Source: a virus. Taken from it: a DNA stretch of 61,267 nt. The translations under genes and the position numbers were made by a program. Of this stretch, positions 51 to 19,698 are shown piece after piece. The notes under the pieces were generated by a model, which was given only the letters and a program-made list of their open reading frames with translations, made no database searches and had not been told where the DNA came from. Positions within the stretch are counted from its first letter, which is position 1. Every line of letters begins with the position of its first letter. The stretch lies in the IMG/VR virus record IMGVR_UViG_3300042896_001037, positions 1 through 61,267 of that record; one strand, written 5' to 3'.

Positions 51-124
51 GCGTGTATAGCTCAATTGGTTAGAGCATCCGCCTGATACGCGGAAGGTTA
101 TTGGTTCGATTCCAGTTACACGCA
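51..124 (+). tRNA. tRNA-Ile (anticodon GAT)
   Basis: A full cloverleaf can be drawn: acceptor stem GCGTGTA/TACACGC with discriminator A, D arm GCTC/GAGC, anticodon stem TCCGC/GCGGA around loop CTGATAC (anticodon GAT), and T arm ATTGG/CCAGT with loop TTCGATT. The 3' CCA is not encoded. It stands at the head of the early region, directly upstream of a second, incomplete tRNA. Confidence 0.93.
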
Positions 125-130
125 CATACG

Positions 131-164
131 TCGTGTTAGTGGTTCGAATCCACTCAGGCGTGCA
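131..164 (+). pseudogene. tRNA remnant (T arm plus 3' acceptor strand)
   Basis: A T arm (AGTGG, loop TTCGAAT, CCACT) is followed by seven bases that would form the 3' strand of an acceptor stem (CAGGCGT) and then GCA. No D arm, anticodon arm or 5' acceptor strand precedes it, because the intact tRNA-Ile ends only a few bases upstream. It therefore looks like the 3' third of a deleted tRNA, or a tRNA scar left by recombination. Confidence 0.5.
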
Positions 165-5132: not shown

Positions 5133-5876
5133 ATGAAATACAAATTTATTCCAGTCGATAACGACTTAAACAAAGCAATTGCATTTGCTAATTCGCTTGA
5201 TCAAAACAATGTTATTAATGTTCAAAAAATTAAACAAAAGGAATTTTATATTCCAACACTAGATGTAATTACAAAATTACAAGATAGTGGATGGCATTTA
5301 AAAGGCGTTGCTGAACAAAGAGGAAAAAATAGGAAAATATCAAATAACTTTATTCAACTACAACATCCTGATTTTGCAATACAAAACAGTCAAGGTAAAA
5401 ACGAAGCATTTACTTCAATTACACTATCAAATAGTTGTAACGGATCATCTCCACTACAAATGGATTTAGGAACGTATCGTTTAGTATGTAGCAATGGAGC
5501 AATTACATTTGATGGATTTGAACAAAATAAAATTAAACATACTGAAATTAATTATAGAGATTTAGATCGTTTAGTTGCATCAATGAATGTTAGAGCAAGT
5601 AAATTGTTAACTGATGTAAATGAAATGAAACATACAGGATTATCAATTGAAGATATGCGAAAATTAGCTCGCAACGCAGCTAGTTTAAGATATGATAATT
5701 TAGATGAAATAAACATTGATGATTTATTTGCAGTTAGTAGAGTAGAGGATGAAAGCAATGACTTATGGACTGTATTTAACCGTATACAAGAAAACCTAAC
5801 ACATGATATTACAAACATGAAGGAAGATATCAGATTGAATCAACAACTGTTTGCATTAGCTGAAACATTTGCTTAA
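5133..5876 (+). CDS. DUF932-like protein, paralog A
   Basis: Belongs to the DUF932-type phage/plasmid family. Seen here are the N-terminal segment with GWHLKGVAEQRG, the middle LGTYRLVCSNGAI, and a C-terminal helical part ending DLWTVFNRIQENL and LNQQLFALAETFA. The second copy at 6779 has the same blocks (GLFRMVCENGLV, DLWSVFNVIQEKI, INQKLFAMAAEY). The biochemical role of the family is unknown; members are abundant on phages and plasmids. Own promoter, single gene. Confidence 0.85.
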   Translation: MKYKFIPVDNDLNKAIAFANSLDQNNVINVQKIKQKEFYIPTLDVITKLQDSGWHLKGVAEQRGKNRKISNNFIQLQHPDFAIQNSQGKNEAFTSITLSNSCNGSSPLQMDLGTYRLVCSNGAITFDGFEQNKIKHTEINYRDLDRLVASMNVRASKLLTDVNEMKHTGLSIEDMRKLARNAASLRYDNLDEINIDDLFAVSRVEDESNDLWTVFNRIQENLTHDITNMKEDIRLNQQLFALAETFA

Positions 5877-6778: not shown

Positions 6779-7591
6779 ATGTTAGATTTAAGCAATCAAG
6801 AGTTTTTAAGTACAGAAGAAATTAAGCAACGCGCTTCATCAATCTTCTCAACAACAGCAGCACCTACGGTGTCCGACAAGTTTACGCACATTCCAACGTT
6901 TAAAGTAATTGAGGATATGGCAAAATTAGGTTGGAATGTAGTAGATGCTAAACAAGTTAAAGCACGTAAAGAGGAAACACGTGGTTTCCAAAAACACCTA
7001 GTAGTATTTCGTAATAATGATGTAGTAATTAATGGAGCAGACGGAGATACAGTTTTTCCACAAATTCTATTAACAAATTCCAACGATGGAAAAAATGCAT
7101 TTACATTTACAGCAGGTTTGTTCCGAATGGTATGTGAAAATGGTTTAGTTATTTCAACTGAGCAATTCAATGATGTTAAAATGCGTCACATGGGATACAC
7201 GTTTGAAGAATTGCAAGGTCAAATCAAAGAGATGGTTGAATTGTTACCATTAACTGTTGAATCAATGAATAGAATGAAAGCAATTGAATTAAACGAAGAT
7301 CAAACCAAAGCGCTTGCTAAAAAAGCATTATCAACACGTTTCACAGAGGAGCAAGTTGAAGCATTTAAAATTGATATTGATAAATTACTAGAGCCAACAC
7401 GACCTGAAGATAAAGGAAGCGATTTATGGTCAGTATTTAACGTAATACAAGAAAAAATATTAGATGGTGATTTCACATACATAACAGGTGCTAAATCAAG
7501 AAAAGCACGTAAAGTGAAGAATTTCAAACAAGATATGGAAATTAACCAAAAATTATTTGCAATGGCCGCTGAATATACAGTTGCGGCCTAA
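6779..7591 (+). CDS. DUF932-like protein, paralog B
   Basis: Second DUF932-type protein (270 residues), sharing with the copy at 5133 the blocks GWNVVDAKQV, GLFRMVCENGLV, DLWSVFNVIQEKI and INQKLFAMAAEY. It is 23 residues longer, with an extended N terminus and a basic insert (SRKARKVKNFKQDM). The longer leader and the structured RNA right after its stop make it the better candidate for special regulation. Confidence 0.85.
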   Translation: MLDLSNQEFLSTEEIKQRASSIFSTTAAPTVSDKFTHIPTFKVIEDMAKLGWNVVDAKQVKARKEETRGFQKHLVVFRNNDVVINGADGDTVFPQILLTNSNDGKNAFTFTAGLFRMVCENGLVISTEQFNDVKMRHMGYTFEELQGQIKEMVELLPLTVESMNRMKAIELNEDQTKALAKKALSTRFTEEQVEAFKIDIDKLLEPTRPEDKGSDLWSVFNVIQEKILDGDFTYITGAKSRKARKVKNFKQDMEINQKLFAMAAEYTVAA

Positions 7592-7680
7592 GCAACACAA
7601 AAGTAGATGACCATGAAGTGAAACCAAATAAACTAAAAGCGCCTACAGTGGTACATGGATCAGGCGCTTTATCTACTTGC
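7592..7680 (+). ncRNA. Structured RNA with predicted pseudoknot
   Basis: An outer helix AAGTAGAT (7601-7608) with ATCTACTT (7671-7678) encloses a 27-base bulge and an inner helix AAAGCGCC (7636-7643) with GGCGCTTT (7663-7670). The two 3' strands abut, so the helices can stack. CCATG in the bulge (7611-7615) can pair with CATGG in the inner loop (7654-7658), giving a pseudoknot. It starts one base after a stop codon and ends one base before a tRNA-like gene. Unknown class; it may be the 5' part of one transcript that ends at the terminator at 7784. Confidence 0.55.
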
Positions 7681-7681
7681 T

Positions 7682-7754
7682 AGTCAGGTGTACTTAAATG
7701 GAAAAGTACCTAACGCTTAATTAGGAGATGCAGGTTCGAATCCTGTCCTGACTA
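7682..7754 (+). tRNA. tRNA-like gene with atypical anticodon loop (possibly Lys, CTT)
   Basis: Acceptor AGTCAGG/CCTGACT with A73, D arm TACT/AGTA with GG in the loop, anticodon stem CCTAA/TTAGG, T arm GCAGG/CCTGT with loop TTCGAAT. The anticodon loop reads CGCTTAA: the middle triplet is CTT, but position 33, nearly always T, is G. The base between D and anticodon stems (position 26) is also missing. CCA is not encoded. Either a decayed tRNA or a tRNA mimic. Confidence 0.6.
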
Positions 7755-7783
7755 CACAACTGCTTCATAACCAGTTCTTTTAC

Positions 7784-7814
7784 CCCACCTGATGCGAGTT
7801 GGGTGGGTTTTTTA
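7784..7814 (+). terminator. Intrinsic terminator after the RNA block
   Basis: Stem CCCACC/GGTGGG with an extra T-G pair and a ten-base loop, then a T run (7808-7813). It closes the transcript that contains the structured RNA and tRNA-like gene. Confidence 0.85.
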
Positions 7815-19376: not shown

Positions 19377-19616
19377 ATGATGAAAAAGGTAGACATGATT
19401 AAAACGATTCAATCCACAGAAGCAAGAGCTTGGTTAGCATTAAAAAAATCTCAAGTAAATAATGGTAAAGAAAGCCAAATAACTAAAGAGTATAGAGAAC
19501 GATGGATGACGCTTAAGTGCTTAATGTCGGCTTTAGATATAGAATCAGATGTTGAGTTGGTAGAATCAAAAGAAGCGCTTCAAATTATATTAGATAACTT
19601 TGAACTCGCTTTTTAA
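19377..19616 (+). CDS. Hypothetical protein, paralog of 12666, 79 aa
   Basis: MMKKVDMIKTIQSTEARAWL matches the start of the gene at 12666 and the C-terminal helix also lines up. I chose the ATG at 19377 because the preceding GATAAAAGAT is the usual leader; an in-frame ATG at 19365 lies too close to the promoter element. Confidence 0.65.
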   Translation: MMKKVDMIKTIQSTEARAWLALKKSQVNNGKESQITKEYRERWMTLKCLMSALDIESDVELVESKEALQIILDNFELAF

Positions 19617-19698
19617 AGTACAATAGACCCTAGTATAAGGGTGGCGGGCGGTACGGCGTATGGCGGTATATATATGGGCGTAATATGGTCGTATGGCC

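Follow-up and report, generated by a model that had tools for sequence, protein, structure and literature searches.

What kind of RNA is encoded by a tRNA-like gene whose anticodon loop lacks U33, and what is the second structured RNA that stands directly beside it? These questions are raised by a short block downstream of a DUF932 gene in a 61 kb environmental virus record (IMG/VR IMGVR_UViG_3300042896_001037). The whole stretch analysed here, 61,267 nucleotides and called the window below, encodes a T4-type terminase gene. An initial annotation of the block, made from the sequence alone, had described a pseudoknotted RNA, a tRNA-like cloverleaf and a terminator, and had proposed a tRNA mimic or decoy. 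We compared the block with other phage loci, which carry L-number labels (L002, L230 and so on).

Two RNAs downstream of a DUF932 gene

The features of the block, together with a second RNA slot near the start of the window, are as follows.

6779..7591, plus strand: DUF932 gene (Pfam DUF932, E 1e-29), with the RNA slot at its 3' flank
7601..7678, plus strand: structured RNA of 78 nt, pseudoknot-capable; 7 homologues, covariation in P1 and P2
7601-7608 / 7671-7678, plus strand: P1 helix of this RNA, AAGTAGAT / ATCTACTT
7636-7643 / 7663-7670, plus strand: P2 helix, AAAGCGCC / GGCGCTTT, which stacks on P1
7611-7615 / 7654-7658, plus strand: pseudoknot stem (loop-bulge pairing), CCATG / CATGG
7682..7754, plus strand: compact tRNA-like, apparently non-decoding; acceptor AGTCAGG/CCTGACT, D stem TACT/AGTA, anticodon stem CCTAA/TTAGG, T arm GCAGG-TTCGAAT-CCTGT, A73; relatives in L002, L003, L020, L043 and L230
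7714-7720, plus strand: loop of the tRNA-like, CGCTTAA, 7 nt, with G33; position 26 is missing from the tRNA-like
7758..7776, plus strand: small hairpin AACTG-CTTCATAAC-CAGTT between tRNA-like and terminator
7784..7813, plus strand: intrinsic terminator, a 10-pair stem (7784-7807) followed by a T run, from the fold
51..163, plus strand: second RNA slot, a tRNA-Ile followed by a short T-arm hairpin

The two stackable helices and the CCATG/CATGG pairing of the initial annotation were found at 7601-7678, and the cloverleaf with its CGCTTAA loop, without U33 or position 26, can be read from the sequence; the terminator is as clear as it had been described. The gap before the tRNA-like had been given as one base and is actually three bases, between the P1 helix and the acceptor. 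Two pattern searches, one using 15 bases of the 3' half of the upstream RNA and the other a gapped stretch of the 5' half, returned an identical set of homologues, seven of them distinct. Standard pairs make up 98.6% of the pair cells in these seven, a value that 0 of 500 shuffles reach, and five pairs (7 cells) of P1 and P2 are changed on both sides, a number as high in 1 of 500 shuffles; these shuffle statistics ignore kinship among the sequences. Sliding the pairing partners abolishes the covariation signal. Conservation of the upstream helices, on which the initial reading depended, is thus backed by compensatory changes for the nested helices. The pseudoknot stem is invariant in 7/7 homologues, so that covariation does not test it; the stem is conserved and its pairing likely. 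The folding energy of the window element is unremarkable (z -1.4 to -1.8). Looking for the block in other phages had a mixed outcome: the pattern searches gave the seven homologues, and a direct similarity search against known phage genomes gave no match. No Rfam family was matched by the pseudoknot-capable RNA, and when the whole element was searched permissively, with E values up to 5, tRNA was the only match.

Two other readings of the upstream RNA were rejected. A coding frame, MKPNKLKxPxVVHGSG, runs through it; its start and end vary among relatives, it has no protein match, and P1 covaries though its 5' arm precedes the frame, so that RNA structure fits the conservation better. Inspection by eye for HDV, hammerhead and pistol ribozymes gave no conserved core.

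The upstream RNA stands beside another tRNA-like in L011 and without any tRNA-like in L243 and L250, while the compact tRNA-like occurs without it in L020. The two are therefore separate modules, and the idea of an upstream domain accompanying the tRNA-like holds for the window but not as a fixed unit. At the site homologous to the second slot, L230 holds both the pseudoknot RNA and the compact tRNA-like; this pair adjoins the homologue of the window's first gene rather than a DUF932 gene, and a search of the L230, L243 and L250 records found no DUF932. Relatives of the DUF932 gene number 55 in viral contigs. The window has two paralogues near each other (5133-5876 and 6779-7591), with an RNA slot only after the second. 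Another structured RNA, CCCCACCAACATGAAAATGTTGG...CCTGTAGATAGTATCTACAGG..., lies at about 11230-11360 of L230 and has homologues in L243, L115 and L079; between phages its hairpins show paired differences. The stem of the small hairpin at 7758..7776 also differs in relatives, yet pairs (AACG/CGTT). We give about an even chance to the reading that the window element is a cassette of two RNAs, one structured and stand-alone and the other tRNA-framed, which would be transcribed with the DUF932 gene and lie at the 3' end of its transcript.

The tRNA-like itself is called tRNA-Lys by ARAGORN and scores 36 bits against Rfam tRNA; the cloverleaf has acceptor, D and T arms and folds. Across the window, L002, L003, L020 and L230 the loop reads CGNTTAA, with G33 fixed and the would-be wobble base C, A or T. 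As far as these sequences go, a fixed G33 with a varying position 34 is the opposite of what decoding requires; compared with its relatives, the window copy has neither the U33 nor the consistent anticodon of a decoding tRNA, which supports the earlier view that this is probably not a normal tRNA.

A family of RNAs with tRNA ends

The window copy has the acceptor and T arm shared by a family of AGTCAGG tRNA-framed RNAs. The T-arm/acceptor pattern CAGGTTCGANTCCTGTCCTGACTA found at least 120 stretches in viral contigs and, in metagenome-assembled genomes, 8 contigs of which five bear the label Bacteroidota. A generic T-arm plus acceptor search of 198 loci fetched with the CAGGTTCGANTCCTGTCCTGACTA-type pattern then yielded at least 219 distinct members, in which the AGTCAGG acceptor and A73 are partly set by the search pattern. 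When arrays were read without acceptor selection, the T arms rejected by ARAGORN mostly carried an AGTCAGG-type acceptor, and the normal tRNAs beside them had many different acceptors. Members have a median length of 102 nt (range 53-258, the few longest being artefacts that bridge two adjacent genes). Copies of this kind are interspersed in arrays rich in normal tRNAs, and many start a few bases past a stop codon.

Among the matches listed, 175/217 members have a D stem and GG loop, and the D/T elbow is therefore kept. About 80% of members have a Leu-like D arm, with TGGCG in 152/219 of the matches listed; in the window copy and in its close relatives the D arm reads TGTACTT instead, the Leu type being typical of the family and not defining. 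A canonical anticodon arm is present in only 12/217 of the matches listed, with U33 in 5 of these 12, against U33 in 105/105 ordinary tRNAs at the same loci. The interiors of 214-216 members, among the matches listed, fall into 170-171 clusters, 145-146 of them singletons, counts that depend on the BLAST threshold; the same method placed 147 ordinary tRNAs from the same loci in 70 clusters, the largest of 17. As read from these comparisons, phages keep both ends of a tRNA and swap the decoding middle among at least 170 unrelated and mostly unique sequences. The family is very probably real and non-decoding. A search of the open-access literature without preprints, itself weak evidence, found no hypervariable or anticodon-less phage tRNA-like RNAs, and the family is apparently undescribed so far. 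In Rfam searches no interior matched a known defence-related RNA, and tmRNA (RF00023) was matched neither by members at the family loci nor in the window.

One member is carried by a cultured phage, Bacteroides phage BS-TP2, grown on Bacteroides salyersiae BG8. It is unannotated (19550-19657), with acceptor GGTATCG/CGATACC, a Leu-type D arm and a unique interior, and scores 40 bits against Rfam tRNA; ARAGORN reports none. In L138 an AGTCAGG acceptor (at about 4957) encloses the D and anticodon region of a normal tRNA-Ile(TAT); frames therefore also accept normal tRNA middles.

Several other RNA motifs were seen at these loci. The hairpin TGACNGCYCGGAAAGACGRGC, widespread in phages (L063, L094, L131, L155, L268 and about 110 more sites), was considered as a signal for tRNA frames and set aside as a separate motif, only 29/119 sites preceding one. 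It forms the constant 3' end of an otherwise variable upstream sequence, and its sites away from tRNA frames mostly precede genes. Rfam gave no match for it at the loci that were scanned, and it may be a further kind of frame for RNA modules that vary. In L063, L082, L101, L114, L129 and L158 a leader RNA has the fixed core TACCTCACNGTGCGTAGGTAAG, flanked by two arms that co-vary (AACAGA/TCTGTT, AACAAG/CTTGTT). On the minus strand of the crAss-like phage cr4_1 (NC_055893, L270, about 434-680), an unannotated T arm and acceptor close a long stretch that starts GGGGCATTATGGTTTTGACAGC, resembling the start of a tmRNA, with no Rfam match at E 0.05.

Turnover of the slot and exchange of interiors

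In relatives of the window the DUF932 slot holds other tRNA-likes with the same acceptor stem and T arm and unrelated middles, 12 types across 22 phages. Only 2/7 pairs of phages with DUF932 genes at least 95% identical share a type, the types for this comparison having been assigned by hand from sequences and interior clusters. Unrelated tRNA-likes stand beside DUF932 genes that are 98.4% (L005/L006), 98.3% (L015/L016), 97.7% (L007/L010) and 97.5% (L008/L009) identical. Judged by these pairs, RNA replacement in the fixed slot is fast. Three further leader RNA families (TCGTCGCAAGTAGAACCGACGGCC..., TAGAAGGCAAGCGG... and CCTGTACCCTTGAGAAACTCG...) were seen to precede tRNA-likes, in the DUF932 slot of L014-L019, L027 and L028, in that of L009, L010 and L013, and also in L029, L196 and L128; in several phages they lie exactly at the place of the window's pseudoknot RNA.

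Some interiors recur, and their pairs are kept through double changes: eight in L096/L108/L191, four in L020/L072/L109 and four in L098/L142/L190, in groups that are small (2 to 6 sequences each). Interiors also move between frames. That of L014 recurs in L175 and L172, making three different frames; that of L121 recurs in L190 on another acceptor; and that of L130 and L157 recurs in GenBank MW202828 with a different acceptor and a helix that reads CATATAA/TTATATG against CATACAA/TTGTATG. Two are found free-standing with a closing helix of their own, the L152 interior in L070 and the L129 interior in L042. Smaller units are gained or lost as well, as with a 41-nt piece inside one loop that distinguishes L004, L009 and L131 from L010, L011 and L013, where presence or absence is the difference, and that occurs on another frame in L192. 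Interiors fold slightly better than shuffles (mean z -0.54, by nested folding, which cannot score pseudoknots), and with so mild a folding energy it cannot be said of all interiors that they are structured.

A tmRNA (Rfam, 72.9 bits) was noticed at 5687-6058 of L042, in a phage contig, just downstream of the stand-alone module that equals the L129 interior; it is missing from the tRNA/tmRNA scan list.

Possible roles and known relatives

The reading that we prefer, and regard as evenly balanced, is that tRNA-framed RNAs form a modular phage family in which the parts of a tRNA recognised during maturation are kept and the decoding part is replaced by an exchangeable RNA domain. The half of a tRNA that RNase P and RNase Z recognise is the one with acceptor and T arm, and the frame should for that reason allow the RNA to be excised and protect it. 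These two enzymes, together with CCA addition, would release it from the mRNA, the tRNA ends would shield the product and give it stability, and the interior would act as an effector that binds a host factor. Most plausibly the interiors would be swappable inhibitors or decoys of host defence, since counter-defence would explain their extreme diversity, the swaps between near-identical phages and the several copies per phage. To this functional part, from excision and stability to effector and counter-defence, we give an even likelihood at best. Mimicry of a defence RNA by a phage is known from pseudo-ToxI of phage PhiTE, a small pseudoknotted phage RNA that defeats a defence nuclease (PMC3475682). 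The hypervariable interiors suggest that phages keep a rapidly changing arsenal of small RNAs here, and not a gene that serves translation.

Other explanations account for part of these data. The RNAs may be decoys that are cut or bound by host tRNA-targeting toxins in place of real tRNAs, with the interior secondary. The tRNA-like frame, its frequent position among phage tRNAs and the Lys-like CTT in the hairpin loop retained by the window copy are as expected of decoys; with a canonical anticodon arm in 12/217 of the matches listed, however, anticodon nucleases are not a general target, and a decoy does not need diverse, covarying interiors. We consider this unlikely as a general account. 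The proposal of a mimic or decoy in the initial annotation was correct in that the gene does not look like an ordinary decoding tRNA, but too narrow, nearly all relatives being without an anticodon arm. Less likely again is punctuation of polycistronic mRNA, in which the frame would merely recruit RNase P and RNase Z and the interior would be a passive spacer. Such a role would suit the many copies placed just past a stop codon, and the window copy between gene and terminator, but passive spacers would not be expected to recur and covary over unrelated contigs or to be swapped between near-identical phages.

It is improbable that the RNAs are aminoacylated, with a Leu-like D arm and A73 permitting leucylation so that charged RNAs would deliver or sequester leucine or bind LeuRS. 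The E. coli enzyme needs A73 and elbow contacts and not the anticodon, and charges without the anticodon arm (PMC9976931), and most members have the Leu-type D arm (TGGCG in 152/219 of the matches listed). Interior diversity is left unexplained by charging, the window copy is without this D arm, and the search pattern itself partly dictates A73. Decay of tRNA genes, or introns that are spliced out to leave normal tRNAs, is very improbable: near-normal anticodon arms in a minority and the normal tRNA-Ile middle of L138 would fit, yet the middle has been completely replaced between intact acceptor and T arms, members as short as 53-75 nt have no room for an anticodon arm plus an intron, no Rfam intron family matched, and recurring interiors covary. 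Least probable of all is a functional tRNA-Lys(CUU) with an unusual G33 in the window; ARAGORN and Rfam accept it and its cloverleaf folds, but the uniform U33 of ordinary tRNAs and the fixed G33 beside a varying wobble base in relatives argue the other way.

Among known systems the modular family is architecturally closest to species 1 RNA (rnaC) of T4, one of the two stable RNAs of the T4 tRNA cluster together with species 2 RNA (rnaD). To our knowledge the function of species 1 RNA has stayed unexplained for decades. It lies in a phage tRNA cluster and has a perfect T arm (CCGGGTTCGAATCCCGG), largely pairable ends (CGATTCG/CGTTTCG, with two U-U mismatches) and a long non-tRNA interior. Such an interior between tRNA-like ends is common to rnaC and the family, the window copy being compact. 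At the rnaC locus (NC_000866, L263 1409-1547) and in its relatives L264, L265 and L266 the ends show paired changes among T-even phages; they do so in Enterobacter phage PG7 and Yersinia phage TG1, and in TG1 they pair 7/7. From our reading of the alignments rnaC would be tRNA-framed, which older literature may already state. Unlike the present family, which is hypervariable, modular and often multi-copy, rnaC has a conserved interior (the region matches 764 phage records), is single-copy and is without a Leu-type D arm; a blastn search of all loci with rnaC and rnaD found nothing similar.

Ordinary phage tRNAs share with the family the acceptor stem, D/T elbow, T arm and A73, and family members often stand among them; the family differs in its replaced anticodon arm, lost U33 and mostly unique interiors. 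tmRNA likewise has tRNA-like ends and a structured, partly pseudoknotted interior, whereas family members mostly keep the D arm, are far shorter and have no Rfam tmRNA match. Theta ribozymes, which are HDV-like, adjoin phage tRNAs and have been proposed to process tRNA 3' ends (PMC10879173). The window also has a small pseudoknot-capable RNA right beside a phage tRNA-like, but on its 5' side and with an outer closing helix, and the HDV-like covariance models in Rfam found no match over the window element at E up to 5. In contrast to type III antitoxin RNAs and pseudo-ToxI, the window has one pseudoknot-capable RNA and no visible tandem repeats; no type III antitoxin family was among the Rfam matches over the element.

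The tRNA-framed RNAs point to a large phage RNA reservoir overlooked by gene finders: ARAGORN misses 167/219 members among the matches listed, and the Rfam label is only 'tRNA'. More tentatively than the readings above that we favour, a general RNA-effector platform of many phages can be envisaged, in which a tRNA frame, or sometimes a simple closing helix, would carry hundreds of unrelated, structured domains that are quickly swapped for counter-defence or host control, and T4 species 1 RNA would be a fixed member. The role of species 1 RNA becomes testable through comparison with the family, and the copy in BS-TP2 opens the question to bench testing. If the interiors are counter-defence agents, phages would possess, alongside their anti-defence proteins, a modular arsenal made of RNA, in which every interior would be a natural binder already mounted on a stable frame.
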